This document shows, in pieces, positions 13,145 through 52,652 of a stretch of 64,000 bases of DNA. The notes beneath the pieces are model-generated. The model was not told the DNA's origin. It saw only the letters and a list, made by a program, of their open reading frames with translations, and searched no databases. Source of the stretch: Acetomicrobium sp. S15 = DSM 107314 (lineage in GTDB: Bacteria; Synergistota; Synergistia; Synergistales; Thermosynergistaceae). Every line of letters starts with the position of its first letter. The stretch's first letter is position 1. Location of the stretch: contig NZ_JADEVE010000336.1 of assembly GCF_016125955.1 (NCBI RefSeq), positions 124,001-188,000 on the forward strand. The letters are read 5' to 3'. The position numbers were made by a program, and so were the translations under genes.

Positions 13145-14482
<1,338 letters not shown>

Positions 14483-14493
14483 TCATAAGAACA

Positions 14494-14523
14494 AAAGGGC
14501 CTTTTATCGCAAGGAGGCCCTTT
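14494..14523 (-). terminator. Hairpin between rpmA and obg (terminator or attenuator)
   Basis: On the minus strand, AAAGGGCCT (14523-14515) pairs with AGGCCCTTT (14502-14494) around a 12-base loop and is followed by TTGTTCTT. It would end most ribosomal-protein transcripts and leave a lower read-through into obg. The obg ATG lies 32 bases further on. Confidence 0.65.
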
Positions 14524-14556
14524 GTCTTCTTTCGGCAAATTAAAAAACCGTTCATG

Positions 14557-14841
14557 TTAGTTATTGGCAGGTTCTACGCTTGCGTATGATCTGCCGCCTT
14601 TGTTCTCGAACTTAACAAAACCCGAAGACAGAGCGAAGAGCGTATCGTCCTTACCTCTTCCGACGTTTCGTCCAGGATGTATCTTTGTGCCTCTCTGCCT
14701 AACAATTATAGTTCCTGCCTTGATCATTTGACCATCATAGCGCTTTACACCAAGGCGTTTGCTATTGGAATCTCGGCCGTTTTGGCTGCTGCCTTGCCCT
14801 TTTTTGTGAGCAAAAAGCTGTAAGTTAAACTTTCTGATCAT
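14557..14841 (-). CDS. rpmA: 50S ribosomal protein L27 with cleavable N-terminal extension
   Basis: 94 residues. Instead of starting at AHKKG, the protein begins [17 protein letters not shown]. The short leader ending in LQLFA is the Firmicutes-type extension removed by the protease Prp before L27 can act at the peptidyl-transferase centre. The gene for Prp is directly upstream (14841-15170), overlapping by one base. The rest is standard L27 ([18 protein letters not shown]-like region, then [15 protein letters not shown]). Confidence 0.96.
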
Positions 14842-15170
14842 TATCTTTCTTCCACCTCCACTACCTTTACATACCTGGGATATGAGGCTTCTACTGCTTT
14901 AAGACTATAAAATATAGTGTTGACAATACTTTTGACCCTTTTATCGTGAGCAAGTGGCCACTCTATAGAGAAATATGCCGGCTCGTCTTCTTTTTTGCAC
15001 TGCACGCCGTTCAGGGTCAATACATCTATTAGTCCAACAGCCAAGGCTTGAAGCAATGTCGACACAGCAGCGCAGACAATATCTTTGTTTCTGGGGGCAT
15101 ATCCGCTATGGCCTGAGGCTCTCATAGATGTAGCCTCTCCATCCCTCTTTACTACTTCTACAGTGATCAC
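14841..15170 (-). CDS. prp: Ribosomal-processing cysteine protease Prp
   Basis: 109 residues, YsxB/Prp family. The catalytic pair is visible as His21 in SGHSGYA and Cys33 in DIVCAAVS, spaced as in the Staphylococcus enzyme (His22/Cys34). Prp removes the N-terminal leader of L27. The gene sits between rplU and rpmA and overlaps both by a few bases, so enzyme and substrate are made together. The L27 leader in the next gene matches the expected substrate. Confidence 0.95.
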
Positions 15171-15484
15171 CTAACTTTGATTTCTCCTATTTGAAGATCT
15201 GTAAATGGCTGGCGATGGCCCCTAAGCCTTCTGTAGTTCTTTTTGCGTTTGAATTTGAAGACCAAAACCTTTTCTTCCTTTCCGTGCTCCAAGACCTTCG
15301 CCTCAACTGTCGCTCCATCTATAAATGGGCGACCTGTCTTAACCTCTTCGTCAGTTGAAACCAAAAGCACCTTATCAAGAACTACATTGGTCCCTGGGTC
15401 TTCCTTCATCTTCTCTACGCGAATGACGTCGCCCGTAGAAATGCGGTATTGTTTACCACCTATATCAACCACTGCGTAAGACAC
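15167..15484 (-). CDS. rplU: 50S ribosomal protein L21
   Basis: 105 residues with YAVVDIGGKQYRISTGDVIRVEK at the start and FKFKRKKNYRRLRGHRQPFT towards the end, both typical of L21. The start is GTG (15482-15484), with GGAGG at 15493-15497, 8 bases away. First gene of rplU-prp-rpmA. A consensus promoter lies at 15573-15601 and a strongly paired leader at 15505-15549, so the operon is probably controlled in its 5' untranslated region. Confidence 0.97.
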   Translation of the reverse strand: MSYAVVDIGGKQYRISTGDVIRVEKMKEDPGTNVVLDKVLLVSTDEEVKTGRPFIDGATVEAKVLEHGKEEKVLVFKFKRKKNYRRLRGHRQPFTDLQIGEIKVR

Positions 15485-15504
15485 CCTTTATTCCTCCCTC
15501 TCGC

Positions 15505-15549
15505 TGAGATTCGGGTAGGCTTGGCAAAGCCTTTTAAAGACCCGTCTCA
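15505..15549 (-). promoter_or_regulatory. Structured 5' leader of rplU (candidate ribosomal-protein leader)
   Basis: In the minus-strand transcript three helices are stacked: TGAGA/TCTCA (15549-15545 with 15509-15505), CGGGT? read as CGGGT/ACCCG (15544-15540 with 15516-15512), and AGGCTT/AAGCCT (15532-15527 with 15522-15517) closed by a TGCC tetraloop. The element ends about 8 bases before the rplU RBS. L21 leaders with an autoregulatory role are known in Firmicutes; whether this belongs to that family is inference. Confidence 0.6.
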
Positions 15550-15565
15550 AGCGGAAATGCCGTAG

Positions 15566-15724
15566 CTATTGCATTTTACGCGAGATTCGACCACAAGTCA
15601 ACGCATCCATGCTGTTCTCAGCTGCGCGCTTTTCTTCTTCCTTCACTTCTTCCAAATGCTCTAAGGCCGATACTCCGTTGCTCTGTGAGCTTTGGTCTGG
15701 GTGCTTTATATAGTTACTCGGCAT
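15566..15724 (-). CDS. Possible 52-residue small protein upstream of rplU
   Basis: ATG at 15722-15724 opens a 52-codon frame ending at TAG 15566-15568. The predicted protein is hydrophilic, with a Glu/Lys-rich centre (EHLEEVKEEEKRAAE) that could form a helix, and ends in RISRKMQ. No family is recognised. The ribosome site is poor, an in-frame stop lies a few codons upstream of the ATG, and the frame overlaps the rplU promoter (15573-15601), so it may be a chance frame. Its composition is reasonable for a coding sequence, which is why it is listed. Confidence 0.25.
   Translation of the reverse strand: MPSNYIKHPDQSSQSNGVSALEHLEEVKEEEKRAAENSMDALTCGRISRKMQ
15573..15601 (-). promoter_or_regulatory. 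Promoter of rplU-prp-rpmA
   Basis: Minus strand: TTGACT (15601-15596), 17-base spacer, TAAAAT (15578-15573). Near-consensus with ideal spacing. Transcription would start near 15566, giving a leader of about 80 bases that contains the paired element at 15505-15549. Confidence 0.75.
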
Positions 15725-15832
15725 GAAGCACCAACTTCATGTGATCTTCACAATATTCTTGCGTAACCCGTTGGTCTAGCCTACATTTTTGCCGAGCTCT
15801 TGATATTTATCCTTTTATGCGATCAGTGGGCT

Positions 15833-15876
15833 AAAAAATCCGCTGCCGTCCGGGTTGTATCATCTCAGACGGCAGC
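15833..15876 (-). terminator. Terminator of tRNA-Val
   Basis: Minus strand: GCTGCCGTC (15876-15868) pairs perfectly with GACGGCAGC (15850-15842), followed by GGATTTTTT. Begins about 12 bases after the encoded CCA of the tRNA. Confidence 0.85.
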
Positions 15877-15887
15877 AAAATAAAACT

Positions 15888-15962
15888 TGGTGGGTGGTGC
15901 AGGAATTGAACCTGCGACCTCTTCCGCGTCAAGGAAGCGTTCTTCCCCTGAACTAACCACCC
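15888..15962 (-). tRNA. tRNA-Val (anticodon GAC)
   Basis: A full cloverleaf of 75 bases including an encoded 3' CCA. The acceptor stem GGGTGGT pairs with ACCACCC, the D stem GTTC with GAAC, and the anticodon stem CTTCC with GGAAG around the loop TTGACGC, giving anticodon GAC. The T arm is GCAGG-TTCAATT-CCTGC. It stands alone with its own promoter (15977-16004) and terminator (15833-15876). Confidence 0.96.
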
Positions 15963-15976
15963 CTTCGGCAAGGATA

Positions 15977-16004
15977 AGTCTACCATCCTGCGCCGGATTG
16001 TCAA
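15977..16004 (-). promoter_or_regulatory. Promoter of tRNA-Val
   Basis: Minus strand: TTGACA (16004-15999), 16-base spacer, TAGACT (15982-15977), ending 14 bases before the tRNA 5' end. A perfect -35 and a good -10. Confidence 0.8.
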
Positions 16005-16030
16005 GCTACCCCGCTTCATTTAAAGAAGTT

Positions 16031-16924
16031 TTAATCGAGGAGCTCCTCGGGGTTGCGAATTAACATGAGGCTTATTTCGTCGCGCCCAACGCCGCATTTT
16101 AGCATGAGGTCGACGAAGCAGGCAAGCCCTATAGGTGGTGACGGGTTTGAGGCTTGGCCGAAATCGGTGGCCATGATACATCTTGAGGCTCCGACGCTTT
16201 TTATCGTCTCGGCCATATATTCAGGGGTTATAGAATCCCAGGTCGGGAGCAGTGAAAGCATTGTCTTTTCCATATATACTCCCAACTTTGCCAGTCTAAC
16301 TTGTTCCTCTATGGACAACTTGCTCGTCTCAAAATCTGGATGGGTGAAGACAATCTTTTTGACGCCTCTTTTGACCGCCTCCTCACAGAGGGCGATAGCC
16401 TCTCGGTTACCAAGGTGCCCTGTGGCAAGGCACGCGCCGTTAGAAGCTACCAAATCTATAATTTCATAGATTGCCTCGAGCAATTTACCACTCTCATTCA
16501 GGATGGATATGCCGCGCTTCGGTTCTTTCAAAGGGCGCTCCATCTTTTGAGTTTTATATGTTCCGCCTCCGTAGAAGTTAAAATGGTTTTCAGCATGAAT
16601 TGTGGGCATCCAGACTACGGCGGCGCCTAAGTTCAATGCCGAATCCACAGCATAGGGATTTAATCCCCCCACAAAATAATTCAGTGTTAGTGATCCATAG
16701 AGTCTGGTATTTTTGCCAGAATGTTTATTGGCAATGGTCGTCCTGGAGGCCGTGCAACCGGCGTGAGATTTTATTACGCCTCCTCTTATGCCATAGCTTT
16801 GAAGTTCAGCAGAGAGCTCGAAGTCATCCATAAGTCTGGGGAAAAGGCTTGGAGCAGAATGAATGTGCATGTCAAAAGCTCCTCTTATGAGTTCGAGTGA
16901 CTCTTGAGAAGAATACAACTCCAC
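16031..16924 (-). CDS. DUF6282-type metal-dependent hydrolase-like protein
   Basis: 297 residues from GTG 16924; the GGAGG at 16933-16937 lies 8 bases upstream, while an earlier in-frame GTG at 16931 overlaps it. The protein resembles the DUF6282 group of amidohydrolase/TIM-barrel-like proteins. Metal-ligand-like motifs appear in order along the chain: DMHIHSAPS near residue 18, KSHAG, ATGHLG, FTHPDF and ATDFGQ. Substrate unknown. It follows a TTT transporter operon in the same direction, behind a terminator (16953-16986), so it may be partly expressed with it and act on the imported compound. I infer a hydrolase or decarboxylase role only from motifs. Confidence 0.72.
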   Translation of the reverse strand: MELYSSQESLELIRGAFDMHIHSAPSLFPRLMDDFELSAELQSYGIRGGVIKSHAGCTASRTTIANKHSGKNTRLYGSLTLNYFVGGLNPYAVDSALNLGAAVVWMPTIHAENHFNFYGGGTYKTQKMERPLKEPKRGISILNESGKLLEAIYEIIDLVASNGACLATGHLGNREAIALCEEAVKRGVKKIVFTHPDFETSKLSIEEQVRLAKLGVYMEKTMLSLLPTWDSITPEYMAETIKSVGASRCIMATDFGQASNPSPPIGLACFVDLMLKCGVGRDEISLMLIRNPEELLD

Positions 16925-16952
16925 ATCAATCACCTCCTTACAATACCTAAGA

Positions 16953-16986
16953 ATAAAAAGGCTGCAGCGATGAACGAGCTGCAGCC
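16953..16986 (-). terminator. Terminator after tctC
   Basis: Minus strand: GGCTGCAGC (16986-16978) pairs perfectly with GCTGCAGCC (16968-16960) and is followed by TTTTTA. It lies 30 bases after the tctC stop and 28 bases before the DUF6282 gene. Confidence 0.8.
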
Positions 16987-17016
16987 TAAATCTGTGACTT
17001 TGTTAAAGCAGAGACA

Positions 17017-17985
17017 TTACTTCTTCTCGCCCCATGGATTGACTTTATATAGGTCGGTAAAGCGTTTGATTAGAGCCTTCATGTATTCGTCATATTCATC
17101 GAGTATCTTAACATCCATAGGTTGAACGGCCTTGCGCATATCCTCGATGAACTCGGGATCTTGGGAAATCTTTCTGAAGGCATCTCCGAGCTTTTGAGCG
17201 ATCTCGTCGGGAAGGCCCTTTGGCGCTACGATGCCGCGGCTCGAGTCGCTGACCACATCGTACCCCTGCTCTCTAAGCGTAGGCACATCTGGCAGATCCG
17301 GATATCGTTTCTCCGCCATTACGCCTAAAGCCCTGATCTTGCCGGCTAATACCTGTTCTGCAACGTTGCCTACGTTGAAGCCTCCCACATCCACATGCCC
17401 TCCCAGGACGGCCGCGGTAATTTCGGCATCGCTCTTATATGGAACAGGCCTCACCTTAACGCCGGTTGCCACTTCAAACATATTCGCTGCTATGTGATCG
17501 TCTGATCCTATGCCTGACGTCGCCCAGGTAGTCTTGCCTGGATTGGCTTTGGCGTATTTGATTAAATCGTCGAGCGTTTTGAACCTGTCATCGTCAGCTC
17601 TGACTCCTATAAGACCAGGATCGACGACGAAGTTAGCCAAATACTTAAAGTCCTCCATTGTATATTGGGTCTGTCTCATTAATATGTTGGAGAGAGCGTG
17701 GGGAATGTTTATAGTGCAGAGCGTATAGCCGTCAGGCGCTGCTTTTTTGAGAGCCACAAGTGAAATCTCTGTATTAGCCCCCGGCATGTTATTGATGACC
17801 ATGGGTTGCCCCAGGTACTTATCGGAATATTTGGCTACTATTCTGGCCAACACGTCAGTAGCACCGCCAGGACCAAACCCTACTATCACGGTTATAGGCT
17901 GAGAGGGATACCCCTGCGCGCCCACCGGCAAGGTCATTAAACCCACCATCATTAAAGCTAAAACTAACCCCGCTAACCGCTTCAT
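17017..17985 (-). CDS. Tripartite tricarboxylate transporter substrate-binding protein (TctC family)
   Basis: 322 residues. The N-terminal signal peptide (Lys-Arg then a hydrophobic core, ending near VGAQG, residue 25) exports it to the periplasm. The mature start YPSQPITVIVGFGPGGATDVLARI is the classic TctC/Bug opening with the ligand-binding P-loop-like turn. Bug proteins bind carboxylates such as citrate, tartrate, glutamate or nicotinate; the ligand here is unknown. AAGGAGGGG precedes the ATG. A -10 box and direct repeats upstream (18017-18040) suggest an extra promoter of its own. Confidence 0.93.
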   Translation of the reverse strand: MKRLAGLVLALMMVGLMTLPVGAQGYPSQPITVIVGFGPGGATDVLARIVAKYSDKYLGQPMVINNMPGANTEISLVALKKAAPDGYTLCTINIPHALSNILMRQTQYTMEDFKYLANFVVDPGLIGVRADDDRFKTLDDLIKYAKANPGKTTWATSGIGSDDHIAANMFEVATGVKVRPVPYKSDAEITAAVLGGHVDVGGFNVGNVAEQVLAGKIRALGVMAEKRYPDLPDVPTLREQGYDVVSDSSRGIVAPKGLPDEIAQKLGDAFRKISQDPEFIEDMRKAVQPMDVKILDEYDEYMKALIKRFTDLYKVNPWGEKK

Positions 17986-18016
17986 CCCTAAAACCCCTCC
18001 TTGATCATTGTATTTT

Positions 18017-18040
18017 TTATAACCTCGTAAATTATAACCT
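18017..18040 (-). promoter_or_regulatory. -10 box and direct repeats upstream of tctC
   Basis: Minus strand: a consensus TATAAT (18036-18031) lies 46 bases before the tctC start. The sequence AGGTTATAA occurs twice (18040-18032 and 18025-18017), 15 bases apart. No good -35 is seen. This may be a separate tctC promoter bound by a regulator; the activity is inferred. Confidence 0.4.
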
Positions 18041-18067
18041 GTAAAGTAAGTAAAAACCCAACAACTA

Positions 18068-18082
18068 CATGATCAGATCATG
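18068..18082. repeat. 15-bp perfect palindrome at the tctA stop
   Basis: CATGATC-A-GATCATG, arms of 7 bp with a 1-base centre, overlapping the tctA stop and lying about 32 bases upstream of the tctC -10 box. It could be an operator; it lacks the loop needed for an RNA hairpin of normal shape. Confidence 0.4.
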
Positions 18083-19595
18083 CATCAGCTTCGAACTCTT
18101 CCGTCTTTTTCCCTTTTTTAATGAAGGTAGCTATACCAACCCCCAACACCAAGAGGAACATGACGATCAAAACTAAGTTGAGGATTCCCGAGAACATATA
18201 TCCAACATCTCCGCCGCTTATTAACATGGCCCTGCGCCAATTTTCCTCAGCCATAGGGCCTAATATAAGGGCCAAGACTGCCGGGCCAGCGGGTATCGCC
18301 AACTTTCTCATTATATACCCTATGAACCCGAAGAAGAGCATTAGCCCCACATCGAACATGCTATTTTTTATGGCGTAAGTGCCCACCACGCTCAGAGCGA
18401 TCACCATAGGACCTACGATGCTGTAAGGGACTTTTGCTACCTTAGCAAATAAGTAGGAGCCGAAGTAGCCCAAAATCAACATAACCACATTAATCAAAAT
18501 CATTCCCAGCATGAAAGTGTACACTACATCGGGATGTTGAACGAAGAGTCGAGGCCCAGGCTGCAAGCCATGAATGAGAAGCCCGCCCAGCATAATGGCG
18601 GTTACCGAGTCGCCGGGGATGCCAAGGGTCAGCAGGGGCACCAAAGCACCACCTGTAACGCCGTTGTTAGCCGCCTCAGACCCAGCAACCCCCTCACTCC
18701 ATCCCGTTCCAAATTTCTCCGGGTGTTTCGAGAATCTCTTAGCTTGCTCATATCCTAAGAATGTAGCGACATTTCCACCTGTCCCTGGGATGGTACCTAT
18801 GAACGTCCCGAGTATTCCGGACCGTATGTACGTGGGCCAACACACATGGGCTATCTCATGCCAAAGCTCTCGAAACTTGCAAGAAACGCCACGCTCTACG
18901 ATCTCAGGTATCCTATTTACGGTCTCAGATTCGATCATCTCGAGCGCCTGTGGTATAGAAAAGAGGCCTATGAGTAAGACTATCACGTTAACCCCGTCCA
19001 ATAAGTTCGGTACGCCGAAGGTGAAACGGGGCACCCCCGTGAGCGGGTCAAGCCCGATTGACCCCACAAAGAGACCAAAAACAGCAGCGAGAAATCCTTT
19101 AACAATGTTGGCGCTGGATAGAGAGACGATGACAGAAAGCCCCAGGAGGGCAAGCCAGAAATATTCGCTCGCCCCAAACATGAGAGCTATACGCGCCAGA
19201 GGCGGGGCCAGGAAAAGTAGGACAAATGCACTGATTATACCTCCAGTAAATGAAGCGGTAGTGGAGATTTTCAATGCTTTGTCCGCTTCTCCCCTCTGTG
19301 TCATGGGAAAGCCATCCAAGAGAGTGGCTGCAGAGCTCGGTGTGCCTGGAACGTTCAGCAATATGGCAGAGATGGACCCGCCGTATATGGCTCCGCAATA
19401 TATACTGCCCAAAAGGACCAGGCCGTAGGCTGGAGGCATACCGAAGGTAAGCGGGATAAGCAAGGCTACGCCCATAGAAGCCGTCAATCCCGGCATAGCG
19501 CCTACAGCTATGCCGAGGCCAGTACCGAGGAACATCAGTAACAACGACTTTATGCTAAAAACTACAGGGATGGCTTGAAATATAGCGTCATACAT
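18078..19595 (-). CDS. Tripartite tricarboxylate transporter large permease (TctA family)
   Basis: 505 residues, about 11-12 hydrophobic segments. Family motifs seen are [24 protein letters not shown] near the N-terminus, [33 protein letters not shown], and the second repeat [21 protein letters not shown]...[34 protein letters not shown]. Forms the Na+- or H+-driven transport core with TctB. AAAGGGGAT precedes ATG 19595. Order in transcription is MBL hydrolase, tctB, tctA, tctC. Confidence 0.95.
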
Positions 19596-19617
19596 CAGTT
19601 GATCCCCTTTCTATTTA

Positions 19618-20040
19618 TTAAAACAACGTAAGGCGAGGAAGAGGAACCCTAAGAAAGAGCCCGAATACACAATATAGCACCACCACAAAACCTACTGGAA
19701 CAGTCGCAAGGACTATAAGATTCCTCTCTTTCAAGAAATACATAGACACGAACACATATAGCAGGGTTGCAAAATAATATCCGATAACCTTGATGAGCAT
19801 ATAATAAGCAATGGTGAAAATGATCATCCCATAGAGCTGCCGATAGACAATATTTTCTGACTTTGTCTTAACCCTAGGCTTAGTGATTAAAAGGACTACA
19901 CTAAGGACTATAGTCGTTAAAAGTATTGTTAAAGGATAAGTAGCTGCCTCTGCCGGATAACTCTTTGCTTCCACAAGACCAAAGACAGAAAGCATAATTA
20001 CAACGATAGCGGTAATGCGATTTTTCTTTGCCATGTCCAC
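19618..20040 (-). CDS. Tripartite tricarboxylate transporter small membrane subunit (TctB family)
   Basis: 140 residues with four hydrophobic segments, as usual for TctB, and little other conservation. The start is GTG 20040 with AAGGAG 9 bases upstream; ATG 20034 is an alternative. Identity rests mainly on topology, size and position directly before tctA. Confidence 0.85.
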   Translation of the reverse strand: MDMAKKNRITAIVVIMLSVFGLVEAKSYPAEAATYPLTILLTTIVLSVVLLITKPRVKTKSENIVYRQLYGMIIFTIAYYMLIKVIGYYFATLLYVFVSMYFLKERNLIVLATVPVGFVVVLYCVFGLFLRVPLPRLTLF

Positions 20041-20078
20041 AGTCGATCACTCCTTCTGTCTGTTTCCTGCATTTTATT

Positions 20079-20828
20079 TTAATAGTGATCCTGTTGACCT
20101 ATTGCTATAGGTTCTTCAACAGTCAGATTAAAATACCTGTTCGCACCTCCCTTCATGCCCTCCGGTAACATGACGGTGATAGATGGACTCTCTTCTACTG
20201 TTACCCTACCTCCATCTACCCTGAGCCATCCGTCGTGGCCAGGCAGCACACGATGAGCCAATTTCCTTATTTTAGCTATACTATGCTCGCTCGCTGCTGG
20301 GTCGAGCGTCATGTCCACGTGCCCTGTTGCGAGTTCAATCCTATTTTTAACTACATCGCCGGCGAGAACCCATTTCCCCCCTTCGATCTCTAAAACAAGA
20401 GAAATACCTCCTGGTGTATGACCCGGGGTGGAAATCACTTTTAAGCCCTGAGCAATATCTGTCCCGTCTTTCACGAGGCATAAATTACGTCCCTTTAAAA
20501 AATCAACTATGCCATGGGGAATCAGAAGGTCGTCTCCCTTTATTGCATAATCCCATTCGTCCTCACTGACGAAAAAGGCGGCGTTGGGAAAGAGATATGC
20601 GTTCTCACAATGATCGTAGTGCAGATGGCTGAGGACGACTTTGTTGACATCGCAAGGCCTCACGGAGCACTTCTCCAAGGCATCTAATAGGTTCAATCGA
20701 ACGCCCATGGCACCTGTATCAAAAACTATCCTCTCTCTTTCCGTCGTGATAAGGGCTACGTTACTAAAGCCCAAAAAACCTACATCGGCTTTGCCCGGGA
20801 ACCCTCTACACAGCACTTCTACCTTCAT
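20079..20828 (-). CDS. Metallo-beta-lactamase-fold hydrolase (AHL-lactonase-like)
   Basis: 249 residues from ATG 20828; the frame extends to a GTG at 20852, and the ribosome site does not decide between them. The metal site is complete: SHLHYDH (HxHxDH), the His of STPGHTPGG, the Asp of LAGDVV and a late His in LPGHDG. The sequence resembles the N-acyl-homoserine lactonase-type branch of the MBL fold, which also includes esterases and lactonases of other substrates. It is the first gene of the tct operon, suggesting that it hydrolyses the transported compound or its lactone. Cytoplasmic, no signal peptide. Confidence 0.82.
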   Translation of the reverse strand: MKVEVLCRGFPGKADVGFLGFSNVALITTERERIVFDTGAMGVRLNLLDALEKCSVRPCDVNKVVLSHLHYDHCENAYLFPNAAFFVSEDEWDYAIKGDDLLIPHGIVDFLKGRNLCLVKDGTDIAQGLKVISTPGHTPGGISLVLEIEGGKWVLAGDVVKNRIELATGHVDMTLDPAASEHSIAKIRKLAHRVLPGHDGWLRVDGGRVTVEESPSITVMLPEGMKGGANRYFNLTVEEPIAIGQQDHY

Positions 20829-20901
20829 TGCCCTTGTAAGCACCCCTTTCACAGCTATTTACAATTACCCGCATAGTGTATTCTTTCGTTCATTTTAGGC
20901 A

Positions 20902-21193: not shown

Positions 21194-22201
21194 TCATTTT
21201 AAGACTATGCCGGTTCTATTGCCGCATTTTAGACACGTACCTGATGTATCGAGTGCGGTTTTAACGACCTCATATCCGTGCCGTAAGATCAACTCCTCTC
21301 CGCACCCCGGGCAGCGCGTTACGGCCGGCTCGGTTACGTTTCCAAGGTAAACATAGTGAAGTTTTTCTGAGGCTATCGATTGAAATTTACGCAGCAACTC
21401 TATAGGAGTAGGCAGCTCATGCCAACGATATTGAGGGAAGTAGCGAGATATATGAAGCGGTATATCCGGCGAAAGCAACGCGATCCAATCCACCAGCTCG
21501 CCAAAATGTTCCTCGCAGTCATTGAAACCCGTTACGACCAAATGCGTAATCTCAACGTGCACGCCGCCTTCAAAGAGTGCCACGATGGTCCCCTTTACAC
21601 ACTCGAGGTCGCCGCCCAACTTCCTGTAGCCTTCCTTTGTAAAGGTCTTGAGATCCACGTTGGCAGCATCCACGTAAGGCAGAAGTGCATTCAGCGGTTC
21701 TGGAAGGACCAGCCCGTTCGTCACCAGGACAACGGCTATCTTTTCTTGCTTCAGCAATTTGCTACTGGCGATGACAAATTCATACCACACAAACGGCTCG
21801 TTATAAGTGAATGCGACGGCATTACTCTTGTATTTTTTCGCCAGACCGGCCAATTCTTCAGGCGTTATAGAAATAAGTCCTAAGCTTTCGTCCCCTCGGG
21901 AGAGATGCCAATTCTGACAGAAAGGACAGGTCATATTGCACCCTACCGTGCCCAAGGAGAGAATCTGCGTGCCTGGGCGCCAGTGGTAAAGGGGTTTCTT
22001 TTCCACAGGATCGAGGGCGGGGGCGGTAGCAAGTCCCCAGTTTAGCGTCGCCATCTCACCGGAAGACACATGTTTCCTGACGCCGCACACCCCACGTGCG
22101 CCTCGTGGCAGTAAACAGCGGTGGGGACATAGATCGCAGCGAACGGCCTCGCCTTCTCTGTGCCAGTATAGAGCTGGGTGATCGGCTTCGCCGCATGTCA
22201 T
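21194..22201 (-). CDS. amrS: AmmeMemoRadiSam system radical SAM enzyme (AmrS)
   Basis: 335 residues. The radical SAM triad is in GCNMTCPFCQN (CxxxCxxC, about residues 89-96). An N-terminal Cys-rich segment (CDLCPHRC...GVCGV) and a C-terminal four-Cys ribbon (CPGCGEE...CLKCGNR) flank the barrel, like PflA-related activases. AmrS proteins occur with Memo and AMMECR1 homologues, and here the fused Memo/AMMECR1 gene is 6 bases upstream. Reaction and substrate are unknown. A GGAGG in the end of the upstream gene serves as ribosome site. Confidence 0.93.
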   Translation of the reverse strand: MTCGEADHPALYWHREGEAVRCDLCPHRCLLPRGARGVCGVRKHVSSGEMATLNWGLATAPALDPVEKKPLYHWRPGTQILSLGTVGCNMTCPFCQNWHLSRGDESLGLISITPEELAGLAKKYKSNAVAFTYNEPFVWYEFVIASSKLLKQEKIAVVLVTNGLVLPEPLNALLPYVDAANVDLKTFTKEGYRKLGGDLECVKGTIVALFEGGVHVEITHLVVTGFNDCEEHFGELVDWIALLSPDIPLHISRYFPQYRWHELPTPIELLRKFQSIASEKLHYVYLGNVTEPAVTRCPGCGEELILRHGYEVVKTALDTSGTCLKCGNRTGIVLK

Positions 22202-22207
22202 CTTTTG

Positions 22208-23557
22208 TCAGGCCTCCTCATACCGTTCCACGGTGAACCGATATACTGTGGCCCCTTCTAATGAACGGATGCCGGCTTTTTGAGCAGCGATGGAAAGCTG
22301 TTCTTGGGGTGTGTCCACTCCCTCTAAATCTGGAAGCAGTACCCCTCTCGCATGCCCCTTGGCGACTATCACGCCGTAGCGCTTAGGGTCCAATTCCTCA
22401 ATAGAAGAAATCGTCTCGGGCTCAGAGAGGACGTCCACAGATATTACTAGCCCTTCCAGCTCCTCTTGTCTTACCGGAGGAAATCGCGGGTCTTCGGTGG
22501 CAGCCGCAACGGCATTGTGCATGATCTCTCGAAGCAAATTTTCGTAGGCTGGAACTATTGTCCCTATACATCCCCTCAGGTTTTTATCGCGCGTTTTTAA
22601 GCTGACGAAGGCTGCTCGCCCTTGACTCTCCAACTGGCGCGTCGCGCTTTCGCCTAAGGTTTTGGATACCTCTTCTCTTGAAGGCAATCGCCCTTGCGAT
22701 AGATACCGCTCGAGCGTAAGTCGCGCCAGCCTCACGTGCGGTGACAAATCATCCCTTGTCTTTTTTTCTGCTGTCGCTGGTTGCCAAAGGGCCACGCCGT
22801 AACCCACGCCGAAGGGGCCTTCATAGGAGATGACATCGATAGGTTCGCCTCGTGCGGCTCCGAGGAGGATCAGGGCGGACCGCAGACCGCACTCGCCCGC
22901 CTCCTCTATTTCAAGAGGGGATAACTTCCATATGGGCTCGGGAGAGGATCTTTGCAACGACTCGATAACGGTCCGATCGAAAATGGCAGCCCTCGGGTTG
23001 TAACCAGCCGGAGCCCCCGGTATGAGCCTGTGGGAGAGGTCGCCGCTGCACAATAATCCCCAGTTTGCTCCATCATCAAAGTCACGCAGTAGTTCCCCCA
23101 AGCGGTAGGATTCTTTGTAAGTCAATCCTATCGGATTTGCCAAAATGGCGAACGGAACTTTACCCCAAGACTTAGCCAAGAAATAGAGCGGGACGACAGT
23201 TGCATGATCCAATATAAGGCGGTCTCCGTCATGGAGGTGCACCGGCACTTTATGCGAACGCAAATATGACTCGAGAGCTTGAGCCGTCGCTCTGTCTCCT
23301 TCCGTTTGAATGCGCACCTGTGGCGCCCCGAATTGAGATAGATCTCCTACGAGACGGTCCGCAGTCAACATTAATAAACCTTCCCTGTAAATCTGGTGAG
23401 GAGTAAAAATGAGCAGTCGTTCAGGCCTAAGCCCGCTAAGTTTCTCTGCGAGCTTCAGCATGCCGTCAACGGTCGATTGAGCCTCCCTCTCATTTCCGCG
23501 CCCTACCTCGGGCACTATGATGGGAGGATGAGGCGTAAAAGCACCCCACAGCCACAT
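22208..23557 (-). CDS. AmmeMemoRadiSam fusion: Memo-like/class III dioxygenase-fold domain plus AMMECR1 domain (AmrB-AmrA)
   Basis: 449 residues from ATG 23557; GGAGG is 8 bases upstream, and a more upstream GTG (23566) overlaps that site. Residues 1 to about 265 resemble the LigB/Memo fold, with early PHPPIIVPEV and ILDHATVVPLYFL carrying metal-ligand-like His and Asp residues. Residues about 275-449 are an AMMECR1 domain with the signature LRGCIGT near residue 335. Human MEMO1 and AMMECR1 are separate proteins of unsettled function, and the bacterial set is usually three genes. Here two are fused and sit directly before the radical SAM gene. Confidence 0.92.
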   Translation of the reverse strand: MWLWGAFTPHPPIIVPEVGRGNEREAQSTVDGMLKLAEKLSGLRPERLLIFTPHQIYREGLLMLTADRLVGDLSQFGAPQVRIQTEGDRATAQALESYLRSHKVPVHLHDGDRLILDHATVVPLYFLAKSWGKVPFAILANPIGLTYKESYRLGELLRDFDDGANWGLLCSGDLSHRLIPGAPAGYNPRAAIFDRTVIESLQRSSPEPIWKLSPLEIEEAGECGLRSALILLGAARGEPIDVISYEGPFGVGYGVALWQPATAEKKTRDDLSPHVRLARLTLERYLSQGRLPSREEVSKTLGESATRQLESQGRAAFVSLKTRDKNLRGCIGTIVPAYENLLREIMHNAVAAATEDPRFPPVRQEELEGLVISVDVLSEPETISSIEELDPKRYGVIVAKGHARGVLLPDLEGVDTPQEQLSIAAQKAGIRSLEGATVYRFTVERYEEA

Positions 23558-23584
23558 AGGGATCACCTCCGATTAAATTATATT

Positions 23585-24041: not shown

Positions 24042-25085
24042 TCACAGAATTAGCATCGCGTCGCCAAACGAGAAGAAGCGGTATTGCTCCTTAATTGCAA
24101 TTTGATATGCTTTTATTATATTCTCATAGCCTGCAAAAGCTGCCACGAGCATCAGAAGGGTGCTCTTCGGCAGGTGAAAGTTTGTTATGAGTGCATCGAC
24201 GACACGAAATTGAAATCCAGGATATATGAAAAGGCTTGCGATGCCCGGACCGTACTTCACAGAACCGTTTTCGAGGGCTGCAGACTCGAGACATCGCACC
24301 ACTGTCGTGCCTACGGCAACCACTCGCCTGCCTTTGCTTTTGGTTTTGGCGATCTGCTCGGCCACTTGGGAAGGAACCACGTAACGTTCAGAGTGCATCG
24401 TATGTTCTTTGATGTCGGTCACATTTACCGGACGAAATGTGCCAAGTCCAACGTGCAGCGTTATCCACGCCAAAATGACCCCTTTTTGGCTTAGCGACGC
24501 CATTAGGGCCTCCGTAAAGTGGAGGCCAGCCGTCGGGGCTGCTACCGAACCGTCGTTTTTGGCGAACACTGTCTGGTAACGCTCAAATGGCAGGTCTTTT
24601 TTGCGGATATAAGGTGGGAGCGGAACCTCTCCGAATTCTTCAAGAAGGGCCCTTACGTCGATTTCGTCCGGAAAAGAAACGACTCTTATGCCCTCTGGCA
24701 GATCTGATTCTACAACTACACGAATACCACAGTCCAGAAAAATCAGCTGACCCGCCCTTAACCTTCGCCCGGGCCTCACGAGGGCTTTCCATTTTTTAGA
24801 TTCCTCGTCGAGCGGAGCGAGCAAAAAAATCTCTACTTCTCCCCCTGATCCCTTCTTTCCGCGAAGGCGGGCTGGAATGACGCGCGTATCGTTCGCTACT
24901 AAAAGATCTCCAGGGCTCAAATATTCCACAATGTCTCGGAAGCGGCGATGTTCAATTGTGCCCTCATCGCGATGCAATACCATGAGGCGTGAGGCATCCC
25001 TAGGCTCTATAGGAGATTGGGCTATGAGCTCCTCAGGGAGGAAGTAATCGTACGATTCCGTTTTATACAGATCGAGAATTGCCAT
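24042..25085 (-). CDS. queA: S-adenosylmethionine:tRNA ribosyltransferase-isomerase
   Basis: Converts preQ1 in tRNA to epoxyqueuosine. 347 residues from ATG 25085. A TTG at 25103 in the same frame overlaps the SpoIID-gene stop (TTGA) and could be the coupled start; neither has a well-spaced RBS. Signatures seen are YDYFLPEELIAQSP, VANDTRVIPARL, PTAGLHFTEAL and NFHLPKSTLLMLVAAF. Downstream of the ruv/SpoIID genes and directly before queT. Confidence 0.95.
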   Translation of the reverse strand: MAILDLYKTESYDYFLPEELIAQSPIEPRDASRLMVLHRDEGTIEHRRFRDIVEYLSPGDLLVANDTRVIPARLRGKKGSGGEVEIFLLAPLDEESKKWKALVRPGRRLRAGQLIFLDCGIRVVVESDLPEGIRVVSFPDEIDVRALLEEFGEVPLPPYIRKKDLPFERYQTVFAKNDGSVAAPTAGLHFTEALMASLSQKGVILAWITLHVGLGTFRPVNVTDIKEHTMHSERYVVPSQVAEQIAKTKSKGRRVVAVGTTVVRCLESAALENGSVKYGPGIASLFIYPGFQFRVVDALITNFHLPKSTLLMLVAAFAGYENIIKAYQIAIKEQYRFFSFGDAMLIL

Positions 25086-25099
25086 TCCTTCGTGCCGCT

Positions 25100-26497
25100 T
25101 CAATAGAGCTTCGAAATCTCGGTATTAGGGTAATAATGGTTTAAAATCTGCCTCGCGCTCCACCCTTGCTCTGCCATCGCCTTTGCTCCCCACTGAGACA
25201 TGCCTACGCCATGCCCCCATCCCCTGCCGTAAAAGCGCACAATTCCCTCAGCAGTGCGCATTGGCGCAGGAGCAACCGTAGGGGCAGGAATGGAGGGAAG
25301 AATGGGGCTTTTTCTCTTGGAGAGCGCCTTTTGCACATAATGTTGGCGCTTCTCCGGGTGCATGAGCATATCAATAAGCTCATCGGGGGTGAAGCATCCC
25401 TGTTTGGTCAGAGCGATTAGCGTGTTCTCGCCCACATTTGAGGAGGCGTTCGGTGGAGTCGTGGACGGTGATGTCGGATTTGTGGCCACCGCTTTAGGTT
25501 GGATGCCGTCGACGGAGAACGCGGTACTCCTCAACTCATTTGGCCCAATCGCCATGCGAAAGGCATGCCCGCTTACTTTTTGAGTGCCCATAGAACCGTT
25601 GAGTATTACGCTGTTCACGCGGCCGCCCGGGCTTGTGTTTTCAAACTGCAGATCCAAAAGCGCCCCCACGTCAAAACCTGCCCTGCGAAGCCTGTTTTCT
25701 ATCTCTTTCAGGGAAAGCGAAAGGCTCCATTGGCTATAAGGAGATTGGTAAGAGAATGGCTCAGCGATTGGTCTTAGATAGGGATAAGACCCTCCCCATA
25801 CGTCTTTTACATCGGCAGTATAGCCGCCGCTGTCGGCATGATAAAACACGAGTGCGAGATTACCTTGATATGTGATAACCATACCACTCGTCGCTTTTAT
25901 GGCTTGATCTAGCTTGGGATCCTCAGCGTTGACCCCTCTATAGACCTGACAGTGAGGCAAAGCACACAGATCAAAACCTTCGCTTTTATGGCGCCCGCGG
26001 TGTTTTATGGCATACGTTCTGGCCACTATAGCTTGGGCCTTCAACGCTTCCATGGGCCAGGCTGGGTTGACTTCCATCTTGAGGACACCCTTAAGGTAAT
26101 CTTCTACCGGCAAAACGTTGACTACGGCGAGGCCACCTGCACTTGGAACCAACCTTAAAAGGCCTCTGTAGGGCCTGCCTTTCCATGAAAGGTAGCGTGA
26201 GCTTGTAAACGTTACCGGTAAATTAGCCTTGGTCTTTCCCATAATCAAAGTGCGAAGGCCGCTTTCTGCGCGAAAGTCAACGCTTTTCCCGAGGTTAACC
26301 CTTCTGCCGGAGGCATCAATGGCAGTTATGGCGCCAGACGAGCTTATGGTGCCCGCCGTGATGCCTGATTCTAAGCCTATAGATATGTCTACCTGCGCCC
26401 CTTGGGCCGTAACGGTGCAGGTCGACAAAATAAAGACCATCAAAGCCGTGCATGCTAACTCTTTAGCGATAAATAAATTTAGCTTTCTGGATGTCAC
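25100..26497 (-). CDS. SpoIID/LytB-domain protein (probable lytic transglycosylase or amidase enhancer)
   Basis: 465 residues. The N-terminal signal peptide ends near residue 34 (VTAQGAQ). The SpoIID domain spans about residues 110-330, with VEDYLKGVLKMEV, the catalytic-region AIVARTYAIKHRG and HADSGGYTADVKDVWGG. A Pro/Ser/Thr linker (about 345-425) separates it from the closing FYGRGWGHGVGMSQWGAKAMAEQG, the second conserved block. SpoIID cuts glycan strands in sporulation; in non-sporulating Gram-negatives such proteins are cell-wall remodelling factors. Start is GTG 26497, overlapping the DUF2905 stop (GTGA). The linker insertion between the two conserved blocks is unusual. Confidence 0.88.
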   Translation of the reverse strand: MTSRKLNLFIAKELACTALMVFILSTCTVTAQGAQVDISIGLESGITAGTISSSGAITAIDASGRRVNLGKSVDFRAESGLRTLIMGKTKANLPVTFTSSRYLSWKGRPYRGLLRLVPSAGGLAVVNVLPVEDYLKGVLKMEVNPAWPMEALKAQAIVARTYAIKHRGRHKSEGFDLCALPHCQVYRGVNAEDPKLDQAIKATSGMVITYQGNLALVFYHADSGGYTADVKDVWGGSYPYLRPIAEPFSYQSPYSQWSLSLSLKEIENRLRRAGFDVGALLDLQFENTSPGGRVNSVILNGSMGTQKVSGHAFRMAIGPNELRSTAFSVDGIQPKAVATNPTSPSTTPPNASSNVGENTLIALTKQGCFTPDELIDMLMHPEKRQHYVQKALSKRKSPILPSIPAPTVAPAPMRTAEGIVRFYGRGWGHGVGMSQWGAKAMAEQGWSARQILNHYYPNTEISKLY

Positions 26498-49475: not shown

Positions 49476-50456
49476 TTACGTTGATGCGATAGCTTCTATC
49501 GAGCCACTCTGACCCCCTTGGTGGATTTGCCTCAAAATCGCGATAGCCACCTCCAAAGCTCTTTTTCCGTCCGCTATTCCAACCAACGGCTGTCTTCCCT
49601 CTTTGACGCACATAACAAAGTGTTGCAATTCGAGCCTCAAAGGCTCATATTTCGGGAAAACGGGATGCTCGACGATCTCAACAAGACCGCGTCCGTTTTG
49701 TCTTACACAGCGATATATGGTGACATCTTGCGTCTCGTAATTCAGCGTTATGTAACGGGTAGGCTCCATAATCTCAAGGGTCCTAAGGCGCCTTTCTGCC
49801 ACCCTGCTAACCAGTATATGGGCCATAGCTCCGTTTGCGAAGGCCATCTGAGCCGAGGCCACATCCTCAAAGTCAGATTTTATAGAACGGCCCAAAGCAG
49901 AGATGCTCGAAATCTCAGAGTGGACGAGAGAGAGGATTATGTCGATATCGTGAATCATCAGGTCCATGACCACGCCCACATCCGTAGCTCGAGGCGTAAA
50001 CGGGCCCATGCGGCGAGATTGGATGAAATGAGGAGGGTTTAGGATTTTTTTGACGTATTGCACGGCACCGTTGAAGCGCTCGACGTGTCCCACCTGAAGG
50101 ACGCATCTCTTCTCCGCGGCCAGGCGGAGCAATTCCTCAGCCTCTTCAACAGTGGTTGTAACGGGCTTCTCTATTAAAACGTTGGTCCCTAACTTTATAG
50201 CCTTGCAAGCTATCTCGTAGTGCAGGCTAGTCGGAACAACTATGCTCACCGCATCCGGTTTCGTTACCTCAAAAAAGTGATCTATATCCGTGAAATACGG
50301 TACGCCCATGTCCTCGCTGACTGCAGCAGCACGCTCTTCATTGATATCCACTATACCTACAAGTTCAGCCTCGGATAGTTCAGCACATATCCTGGCATGA
50401 TGATAACCCAAATGCCCCACGCCTATCACGCCAACGCGAACTGGCTCCATTTTCAT
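49476..50456 (-). CDS. Gfo/Idh/MocA-family oxidoreductase
   Basis: 326 residues. The Rossmann fold opens RVGVIGVGHLGYHHARI, with IEKPVTTTVEEAEEL (the EKP motif near residue 98) and VGHVERFNGAVQYVKK in the catalytic domain. The last segment resembles UDP-N-acetylglucosamine 3-dehydrogenase (GnnA) involved in lipid A variants, but this is a weak inference and the substrate could be another sugar. Two possible ATG starts (50456, 50450) lie behind GAGGAG. It follows pgeF by 89 bases, with a possible promoter between. Confidence 0.85.
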   Translation of the reverse strand: MKMEPVRVGVIGVGHLGYHHARICAELSEAELVGIVDINEERAAAVSEDMGVPYFTDIDHFFEVTKPDAVSIVVPTSLHYEIACKAIKLGTNVLIEKPVTTTVEEAEELLRLAAEKRCVLQVGHVERFNGAVQYVKKILNPPHFIQSRRMGPFTPRATDVGVVMDLMIHDIDIILSLVHSEISSISALGRSIKSDFEDVASAQMAFANGAMAHILVSRVAERRLRTLEIMEPTRYITLNYETQDVTIYRCVRQNGRGLVEIVEHPVFPKYEPLRLELQHFVMCVKEGRQPLVGIADGKRALEVAIAILRQIHQGGQSGSIEAIAST

Positions 50457-50509
50457 TTCACTCCTCGCCTCACAACTTCATCGATCTTTCGAAAAACGCT
50501 TTTCTTTTT

Positions 50510-50537
50510 ATTATATTCTCACGTTTATCGCGCAAAA
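50510..50537 (-). promoter_or_regulatory. Weak promoter candidate before the Gfo/Idh gene
   Basis: Minus strand: consensus TATAAT (50515-50510) with TTTTGC (50537-50532) as a poor -35 at 16 bases. It would give an about 50-base leader. Confidence 0.35.
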
Positions 50538-50545
50538 GCTGGCCT

Positions 50546-51295
50546 TTAGGCGAAAAAGGCGAGCAAGATCATGCGCCTTCCCGCATCACCTTTGCGATAC
50601 GAATAGAAGACATCGCTATTGCAAGATGTGCAATCTCTCAGGATGAAGATTTGGTTTTCCACGAGGCCGCATTGCCACATCTCGGCCTTTATTGCGCTGG
50701 CGATGTCGAAATTGACGCTCTTTCCGCTCGAGCGGCTAATAGCCCTTGAAGGAAAGCTTTTGAATGCCCTTTTGGTCCAAAGATCGCCTGTGGCGCTGCG
50801 CGCATAGCAGCATGGCCCAATGCCCGGCCCGAGCCAAGCCCAAATGTCCTTGCCATCTGCGCTCCATTCTTTGCGGGCCCAGCTCAATGCCTTAGTGACG
50901 AAATGAGAAACAGCACCATTAAAACCGCAGTGAAGGAGCAAAAATCTCGGCTCTGGCGTTGGAGTTCCGAGTATAACAGGCCAACAATCGGCAAACTGAA
51001 GCGCTACGGCTACGTTTGCGCTCCGCGAGATTGCGACACCATCTGCCTCACGGCGCTCAGGAAGGGAGCAAGACGGATCCGCCAAAAGAATGTTAGTGCC
51101 ATGAACCTGACGGGGCATAACTAACGGCAACTCCGGCGACAAGAGCTCTTTTACGCTTTCGCTCACGTCGATCTGCTCCATGAGCGCTCCTTTGAGATAG
51201 AGCGTTGCAGAAAACCCGCAAAAAACTGGCGGGAAAAGATAGCGCAATATTGGTTGGTCACCTTGGCGATCAAGCTGAAAGCCTTCCATTTCCAT
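50546..51295 (-). CDS. pgeF: Peptidoglycan editing factor PgeF (laccase-domain, YfiH family)
   Basis: 249 residues. Family motifs are MPRQVHGT, FADCWPVIL, LLHCGFNGAV and GPGIGPCCY, holding the zinc-binding His-Cys-His set. In E. coli it clears mis-incorporated residues from peptidoglycan precursors; some homologues act on purine nucleosides. GAGGG lies 6 bases before ATG 51295, in the end of folC. The C-terminus is DCTSCNSDVFYSYRKG-like, as usual. Confidence 0.92.
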   Translation of the reverse strand: MEMEGFQLDRQGDQPILRYLFPPVFCGFSATLYLKGALMEQIDVSESVKELLSPELPLVMPRQVHGTNILLADPSCSLPERREADGVAISRSANVAVALQFADCWPVILGTPTPEPRFLLLHCGFNGAVSHFVTKALSWARKEWSADGKDIWAWLGPGIGPCCYARSATGDLWTKRAFKSFPSRAISRSSGKSVNFDIASAIKAEMWQCGLVENQIFILRDCTSCNSDVFYSYRKGDAGRRMILLAFFA

Positions 51296-52652
51296 GGTGC
51301 ACCCTCTCGAGATATGATTTGAGCCATCCTACGAAGTAAAGGCTCCCACAGCATAAAACCGGCAATCCGAAGCGCCTCGCGCGGTGGTATGCTTCCTCTG
51401 CGTCATCATAAGCTTCAATTTGGGAGTTTCTACGAAAGACCCCTTTTGCCATCCTGAGCAACTCTTCTGGCTTAGCGCTGCGTTCAAGTGATGGAACCGC
51501 TGTGAGCACCAAGCTTTTCGGATTGAGCTCCGATAACATGGCAAGCAGCGTGCGGTAATCTTTGTCTCTCATAACCGCGAACAGAATGACAAATTGAGCC
51601 TTTTCGGTGAAGAGTACTTTCAAGCTTTTTACCAAAGATGCCATGCCATGGGGGTTATGGGCGCCGTCCAAGAGCAAAGGAGGGTTTTCGTTAACCCATT
51701 CCAAGCGGCCAGGCCATTTCACATTGTGCAAGCCCTCTCTTATGCTCTTTTCCGTTACGTTGGCAAACTGGTCCTTGAGCTCCCACGCCGACGATGCAGC
51801 GAGCGCGGTGTTTTTTACTTGATGCAGACCCAAAAGATGGGTCGCGAGGCCCGTAAGTTTAACATCGGATCCCACGAGATCGTATTCGTTGCCGTTGTAG
51901 GAAGAGCGCACGTTCTCCACTCTCCAATCCTCAGACAACATGTGCCCAGACACATTTAACTTCTTGCATAAGACCTTGAAGAGCGGTACGAGCCCTTCGG
52001 GCTCGCCGGAAAAGAAAGCCTTGCCGTGTGGGCGAAGGACCGCAAATTTCTCCTCGCCTATCTTAAATATGGTGTCCCCTAAGAAAGACTCGTGATCCAT
52101 AGCTATCGAAGTGATCACGCTCATCGCGACGGGATTGATCAGGTTTGTGGCATCTAATCGCCCGCCCAACCCTGCCTCAACGATGGCTATATCAGGCATC
52201 TCTTCGGCTGTTATCGAAAGCGAAAGAGCGGTGATAAGTTCAAATAATGTTGGAGGGTCGCTTCTGAGCTTTTCGTCTTGCTTCAACGCAGCATCGAGGC
52301 GGTTGAAATGATCGCTCCACTTCTCCTCGGCCACCAGCCGCTCGTTTATCCTCAATCTTTCTCCCATGTGGATCAGATGAGGGCTCGTATAGAGAGCGGT
52401 TTTGTATCCTGAGGCAGAAAATATAGCGCTAAGCGAGGCTGCGGTTGACCCCTTGCCGTTTGTCCCCACAACATGAATAGCAGGGATTCCGAGATGTGGA
52501 TTTCCCAGCGATGCCAACAGCCGACTGATGCGCTTTAGCCCCGGCCTGACTCCAGGACTTGAAAGGCTTATTAAGCGAGATTCAAGATAGTTAAAAAAAT
52601 CAGCACTTTTTTTACTTATGATTTCAAGCTCGCCAGGTTTCTCTCTATCCAT
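51270..52652 (-). CDS. folC: Folylpolyglutamate/dihydrofolate synthase
   Basis: 460 residues. Adds glutamate to dihydropteroate and to folates. GTNGKGSTAA P-loop near residue 64, LYTSPHLIHMGERLRIN, AGLGGRLDATN and the C-terminal HNPHGM are in place. It overlaps valS by 37 bases and pgeF by 26 bases. The N-terminus has an extra segment before the conserved core. Start has no strong RBS, so translational coupling with valS is likely. Confidence 0.95.
   Translation of the reverse strand: MDREKPGELEIISKKSADFFNYLESRLISLSSPGVRPGLKRISRLLASLGNPHLGIPAIHVVGTNGKGSTAASLSAIFSASGYKTALYTSPHLIHMGERLRINERLVAEEKWSDHFNRLDAALKQDEKLRSDPPTLFELITALSLSITAEEMPDIAIVEAGLGGRLDATNLINPVAMSVITSIAMDHESFLGDTIFKIGEEKFAVLRPHGKAFFSGEPEGLVPLFKVLCKKLNVSGHMLSEDWRVENVRSSYNGNEYDLVGSDVKLTGLATHLLGLHQVKNTALAASSAWELKDQFANVTEKSIREGLHNVKWPGRLEWVNENPPLLLDGAHNPHGMASLVKSLKVLFTEKAQFVILFAVMRDKDYRTLLAMLSELNPKSLVLTAVPSLERSAKPEELLRMAKGVFRRNSQIEAYDDAEEAYHRARRFGLPVLCCGSLYFVGWLKSYLERVHHGNGRLSA

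Follow-up and report, generated by a model that had tools for sequence, protein, structure and literature searches.

Introduction

The closest described relative of the locus reported here is the AmmeMemoRadiSam system, whose AMMECR1 and radical SAM (S-adenosylmethionine) parts are represented by the models TIGR04335 and TIGR04337, and which is named in a table row of PMC12724379 and of PMC7701253. Here we describe a two-gene form in a 64,000-nt stretch of DNA from Acetomicrobium sp. S15 = DSM 107314 (NZ_JADEVE010000336.1, positions 124,001-188,000; hereafter the window), where a protein combining a LigB-type domain and an AMMECR1 domain is encoded directly upstream of the radical SAM enzyme AmrS. 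The locus is like the described system in its gene neighbourhood and in that both shared parts score above the curated cut-offs, and it differs in having a LigB-type domain, fused to AMMECR1, in the place of Memo.

AMMECR1 proteins also occur in people, and conserved-domain databases describe proteins of LigB-AMMECR1 architecture as a separate class. Class III extradiol dioxygenases carry out O2-dependent ring cleavage with a Glu iron ligand. Burroughs et al., in 2019, reportedly dealt with the context of Memo, AMMECR1 and radical SAM proteins and are said to have suggested a connection with the modification of nucleotide bases or of isoprenoids. Passages of PMC7694686 and PMC8431788 cite Burroughs et al. 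2019 for the PCAD-Memo superfamily, the former also stating that MEMO1 homologues are known from archaea to people, while a passage of PMC6393860 places the archaeal AMMECR1 family among top-priority uncharacterized proteins. According to excerpts of PMC11081632, the iron ligands of MEMO1 are H49, H81 and C244, the Cys standing at the Glu place of LigB, DesB and aminophenol dioxygenase, and MEMO1 had no dioxygenase activity on the substrates tried. Among the matches listed in our literature search, titles and abstract openings named no established reaction for the system, MEMO1 or AMMECR1, as an original prediction for this DNA had also said.

The gene for the fusion protein and amrS are kept and lost together. 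With a probability of roughly 0.45, we read their products as a self-contained anaerobic two-protein enzyme system acting as one unit.

Materials and methods

Domains were called with hmmscan against Pfam, and NCBIfam models were scored against their curated cut-offs. The survey covered 120 genomes of the window's phylum, which we take to be Synergistota; over these genomes a glycyl-radical partner was also sought with PF01228 and PF13597. The loci compared within the phylum number 80 and comprise the window and 79 fetched stretches (L042-L120), L121 having given no match; three of the 81 genomes that match the fusion query (G034, G050 and G084) are omitted, G107 is represented twice (L057 and L106), and the AmrS-only genomes G089 and G111 are included. 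On contig C78 of G107 (L057, 66,420 bases) the genes are present as mirror-image copies at 14167-16370 (minus) and 50051-52254 (plus), probably a palindromic assembly artefact. The 42 other loci are L001-L011 and L122-L152; because L122 and L001 represent one genome, L122 does not enter the conservation counts.

Gene layout and distribution

The features of the locus described below all lie on the minus strand. The fusion protein is encoded at 22208..23566, in an open reading frame (ORF) matched by PF02900, PF01871 and TIGR04335; it has 452 residues from the GTG at 23566 and 449 from the in-frame ATG at 23557 (codon 4), the latter start fitting the lengths of relatives. AmrS, the AmmeMemoRadiSam system radical SAM enzyme of 335 residues (21194..22201), was recognised by TIGR04337 and by its fold, and its gene begins 6 nt downstream of the fusion. 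The AMMECR1 part scores 127.7 bits against the TIGR04335 cut-off of 99 and AmrS 288.5 bits against 220 for TIGR04337, which upholds the identification as AmmeMemoRadiSam in the original prediction; its description of a Memo/LigB-like and an AMMECR1 domain in one protein, followed by the radical SAM gene, likewise agrees with the PF02900-PF01871 fusion. Because the gap is 6 nt, the two genes are probably co-transcribed, and the predicted placing of all three parts in one transcript is therefore probable; the sites returned by a promoter and terminator scan at the locus were no commoner than in shuffled sequence.

The fusion query matches 81 of the 120 genomes and AmrS is strongly matched (E ≤1e-30) in 83, the latter figure being 95 at a looser threshold of 0.001, while 61 exceed the curated cut-off. 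Both are found in 80 genomes, the fusion alone in one, AmrS alone in three and neither in 36, a co-inheritance that the original prediction had singled out for checking. The sole fusion-only genome (G119; contig C190, L121) holds just a 43-residue remnant with three stops and, having no strong AmrS match, carries in this remnant a trace of joint loss. In the AmrS-only genomes G089, G096 and G111 all three AmrS matches touch a contig end, which in G096 and G111 falls on the side expected to hold the fusion. Within the loci, an AMMECR1-bearing ORF and AmrS are no more than 200 nt apart in 72 of 80, so that their adjacency is not a matter of chance, and they overlap by exactly 4 nt in 28 of the 73 loci that have both; in five loci AmrS is absent but occurs elsewhere in the same genome.

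Among the 80 loci, the fused state is found in 48 and the split state in 26; five are partial and one is uncertain. Of 199 genomes from the phylum to which Clostridium sp. Cult1 belongs, 152 match the fusion protein, and the best 30 of these 152 loci (L123-L152) are all fused, with AmrS as the next gene in 28. Since the arrangement is common both among clostridia and in the bacterial group of the window, the two-gene fused form is standard there and the window copy is ordinary; the compact form to which the original prediction drew attention is a usual form, not a special one.

In a tree built from 74 AmrS sequences (69 labelled, the other five rows without a label; L082, which has runs of N, is omitted) the fused or split state changes eight times, at least six of the changes being forced by well-supported branches, and one genus contains a single fused member beside four split ones. 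The genomes behind several of the split forms are drafts, so that some of these forms could reflect sequencing errors; four from one genus (G016, G019, G085, G088) agree with one another. As fused and split forms interchange repeatedly, the LigB and AMMECR1 domains probably act as one complex.

AmrS and glycyl-radical enzymes

The AmrS model (mean pLDDT, the predicted local distance difference test score, 80.3) has the activating enzyme of pyruvate formate-lyase (PFL) as its nearest solved fold (3c8f, E 4.6e-12). The two enzymes (3c8f and 3cb8 for the latter) have in common the CxxxCxxC and D-x-K motifs, and AmrS differs in an extra N-terminal four-Cys motif, in TYxEP and in having no obligatory glycyl-radical partner. 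The CxxxCxxC motif (C88, C92, C95; 21917..21940), which we take to be the site of the SAM-binding [4Fe-4S] cluster, is present in 110 of 111 AmrS sequences, the other having an X. D183-x-K185 (21647..21655), aligned with D129 and K131 of the PFL-activating enzyme, is kept in all 111, as is each of the T, Y, E and P of TYxEP; H250 is kept in 109, with two gaps. The N-terminal C22-x2-C25-x3-C29-x9-C39 motif (22085..22138) occurs in 107 of the 111, the rest being three gaps and one X. A zinc-ribbon-like C-terminal tail of four Cys (C297, C300, C323, C326; 21224..21313) has its pattern in 66 and was not found in 45, a few of the sequences ending at contig ends, and as judged from these counts the tail is optional.

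The original prediction had read the Cys-rich flanks of AmrS as a sign of glycyl-radical activation. This does not follow from either flank: the C-terminal pattern was not found in 45 of 111 sequences, and the N-terminal four-Cys motif, although invariant, is not known as a hallmark of glycyl-radical activases. What stands of the activase-like chemistry is the radical SAM core, with its PFL-activating enzyme fold and its D-x-K motif. The wider proposal, that AmrS activates glycyl-radical enzymes and that the fusion protein serves this activation, can draw on this fold, on the D-x-K motif aligned in 111 of 111 sequences, on a single NrdD in the window's own genome and on a positive association across the phylum, PF01228 proteins being present in 60 of 80 genomes with the system against 13 of 40 others. 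The association may, however, be explained by lineage alone. The window's own genome has no PF01228 protein, nor have 19 more genomes with the system, and nine of the 80 have neither PF01228 nor NrdD, six of these nine being rated 96-100% complete. The scores of AmrS, moreover, lie far below the equivalog cut-offs of known activases (PFLA 46.6 against 231.75, YjjW 46.8 against 250.2, NrdG2 39.9 against 131.15). On these grounds we hold the activase proposal to be improbable. Given the own genome without PF01228, though with an NrdD, and the nine without PF01228 and NrdD, AmrS does not need a glycyl-radical enzyme partner, and an obligatory partner of this kind was rejected over the 120 genomes in spite of the positive association.

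LigB-type domain and metal site

Residues 9-258 of the fusion protein (22793..23542) form a LigB or class III extradiol-dioxygenase-like domain, matched by PF02900 with an E-value of 1.7e-32 and 113.1 bits against a cut-off of 26.3. The Memo family of Pfam (PF01875) has no match in the fusion protein nor anywhere in its own 2.44-Mb genome; the first domain is therefore LigB-type, and its assignment to Memo proper was rejected. The LigB domains of four relatives (G005, G009, G018, G080) do exceed the PF01875 cut-off, and a profile-profile comparison of the LigB domain with ten Memo proteins from the window's phylum gave a probability of 96.3 (E 1.5e-9), in an alignment that is unreliable at the end of the domain and does not place the third metal ligand. 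Two separate Memo proteins of the phylum (PF01875; L157 and L163) have hydrophobic, signal-peptide-like N-terminal stretches, which would suit export.

In the AlphaFold model of the fusion protein (mean pLDDT 90.3), the solved structure closest in fold to the first domain is TK2203 of Thermococcus kodakarensis (5hee; Z 31.0 over 250 residues, 22% identity), which differs in being a 262-residue protein that stands apart and lacks AMMECR1, and in having Pro-Asp at the place of E225-C226. The domain also matches 2-aminophenol 1,6-dioxygenase (1,6-APD; Z 27.3) and iron-bound human MEMO1 (7kq8; Z 19.0, 13% identity), and Foldseek returned MEMO1 as well (7l5c, E 1.4e-9); structural alignments with nucleoside phosphorylases and pyrrolidone carboxyl peptidases, whose Z lies in the region of 5 to 6, were not used. 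MEMO1 shares the fold and, as far as the excerpts on its iron site go, a metal site of two His and possibly a Cys; it differs in being a separate protein and was not among the matches listed by sequence searches against solved structures. With the shared fold and the His-His metal-site motifs of the Memo/LigB (PCAD-Memo) superfamily, the first domain is a relative of Memo. The homology to human MEMO1 and AMMECR1 asserted by the original prediction is thus backed by the fold match for the former and by the PF01871 domain for the latter. Class III extradiol dioxygenases (PF02900), 1,6-APD among them, have the same fold and the two His ligands, but they use a Glu ligand and O2, whereas the third ligand of the window's domain may be either of two residues (below) and its setting is probably anaerobic.

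The predicted metal ligands H13 (23528..23530) and H57 (23396..23398) are His in 114 of 115 LigB domains, with a gap in the other, and in 115 of 115, respectively, so that the metal-binding residues whose fate in orthologues the original prediction wished to see checked are kept. The predicted active-site His of the SGDLSH motif, H179 (23030..23032), is likewise found in 115 of 115, as are D120 and D176, and E249 in 114; each position of GVGY 253-256 (22799..22810), an invariant loop and strand start, is kept in all 115.

The candidate third ligand lies at E225-C226 (22889..22894), a choice suggested by conservation and alignments. The E225 column holds E in 107 domains, Q in six and H in two, and the C226 column C in 113 and Asp in two. 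In a sequence alignment with 1,6-APD, E225 falls opposite the iron ligand Glu251 (a residue number counted off the printed alignment); in one with TK2203, C226 falls opposite Asp and E225 opposite Pro. Between the two residues we lean towards C226, because it is better conserved, changes only to Asp and aligns with the Asp of TK2203, a preference drawn from aligned sequences. The two loci with Asp at this position, L008 and L009, belong to a Dehalococcoidia metagenome-assembled genome and an actinobacterial one.

AMMECR1 domain and linker

The AMMECR1 domain (residues 278-448; 22223..22735) is matched by PF01871 with an E-value of 4.4e-45, and its model resembles PH0010 (1vaj; Z 22.2 over 170 residues, 38% identity), an archaeal AMMECR1 protein that shares the domain and differs in standing alone. 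It carries an invariant DPRF motif and the RGCIG motif 331-335 (22562..22576), whose C333 is Cys in 118 of 119 AMMECR1 domains, with a gap in the other. Between the two domains lies a linker (residues 259-277; 22736..22792), with pLDDT below 50 at 267-270, around which the split forms part.

These motifs bear on a further explanation, namely that AmrS acts on the fused protein itself and modifies one of its invariant loops (GVGY 253-256 or RGCIG 331-335). Both loops are indeed unvarying across the domains counted above, the fusion and amrS are co-inherited, and enzymes of the activase type act on protein backbones. An active site would explain the invariance equally well, however; in most of the phylum's Memo proteins a Ser stands near the place of G255, as compared by eye at an end that is unreliably aligned; and eukaryotic MEMO1 and AMMECR1 presumably work without AmrS. 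We therefore regard modification of the fused protein as unlikely, though less so than any of the other alternatives considered here.

Gene neighbourhood

No constant third partner gene was found among the neighbour clusters of the 80 phylum loci and the 42 other loci; 31 of the latter (L122-L152) are flanked by about 1.5 kb at most, which leaves only immediate neighbours in view. In eight further stretches, taken where a part is unlinked or at a contig end, nothing was constant beyond the LigB, AMMECR1 and AmrS modules. The neighbour survey for a partner suggested by the original prediction thus gave no constant third gene, and PF01228, though associated with the system, is not required. One gene cluster occurs near or next to the fusion in 11 of the 42 loci, outside the window's phylum (L123-L152, L001-L011); its representative looks to us like a CwlD-type amidase.

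Upstream in the window, queA (24042..25103; PF02547, E 1.7e-137) is a neighbour in the presumed operon, and queA, the queT transporter gene (PF06177; 23585-24031) and the fusion are consecutive, separated by 10 and 18 nt. The gene cluster to which the window's queT belongs (183) has no members from the other 79 loci. In 37 of the 80 loci queA is encoded on the same strand, at most two genes further upstream, usually within a ruvCAB-spoIID-queA run. This placement, and the tight order in the window, are what speak for a role of the system in queuosine or another tRNA step. Against such a role, queA is present in 31 of the 36 genomes that lack the system and two genomes with the system show none; it is not so placed in 43 of the 80 loci (some cut by a contig end), and it was not noticed beside the clostridial loci, which mostly have short flanks. 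A queuosine link via queA was rejected on this distribution, and we consider a tRNA role very improbable.

Of the 37 queA-linked loci, 25 have an aromatic amino acid lyase gene immediately downstream of AmrS, as does L116, which is cut upstream, and in many of the lyase-bearing loci genes for formiminotransferase, cyclodeaminase, amidohydrolase or urocanase come next, as would suit a system that aids histidine degradation. The window, however, has no histidine-degradation genes downstream of AmrS and is one of 12 queA-linked loci without a lyase directly after it; of these, L098 is cut at that point and L112 carries other hut genes at a greater distance. The lyase cluster is found in no other locus of the 80. 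The hut genes are merely local neighbours, and a part in histidine degradation, the least probable of the roles weighed here, was rejected. The genes that do follow AmrS in the window (16031-20852) include one for an MBL-fold protein (PF00753), the others resembling, as we take it, a tripartite tricarboxylate transporter and an amidohydrolase-like protein; an NCBIfam scan of three genes in this interval gave no match above cut-off.

Conclusions

The preferred reading, that of a self-contained anaerobic two-protein enzyme system, would work as follows. AmrS would reductively cleave SAM to a 5'-deoxyadenosyl radical and take a hydrogen atom from a substrate encoded elsewhere than at the locus, the LigB-AMMECR1 protein working with it as one unit. 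The LigB-like half would hold a non-haem metal, most likely Fe(II), on H13, H57 and C226 or E225, and at this site bind or convert the substrate or product without O2, while the AMMECR1 half, with RGCIG and DPRF, would give a second binding or catalytic surface. Domains, motifs, fold matches, co-inheritance and the exchange of fused for split forms are observed, whereas the metal's identity, SAM cleavage, the anaerobic setting, complex formation and the order of steps are what we infer.

Several points weigh against it. The host is only presumed to be anaerobic. Eukaryotes retain MEMO1 and AMMECR1 but are not known to have an AmrS, and a radical step would thus not be obligatory for these folds. 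AmrS may act independently of the fusion, being unlinked from it in the five genomes noted above. For the third ligand, too, the evidence is divided, as the alignment sets E225, not C226, opposite the iron ligand of 1,6-APD and E225 is itself Q or H in eight of 115 domains.

The interest of the locus lies in the unsolved function of the system and not in this particular copy. The survey narrows the question: as the two genes are lost or kept together, no constant third gene accompanies them and glycyl-radical enzymes are not required, the fusion and the radical SAM protein probably make up the whole system. A more speculative idea, to which we attach little credence, is that AmrS puts a radical or radical-derived modification on the GVGY or RGCIG loop of the fusion, thereby switching a dormant LigB-like metal site to a working anaerobic enzyme. 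If the two proteins were such an activase-substrate pair, then the MEMO1 and AMMECR1 found in aerobic cells would descend from it, their radical step having been lost or replaced.

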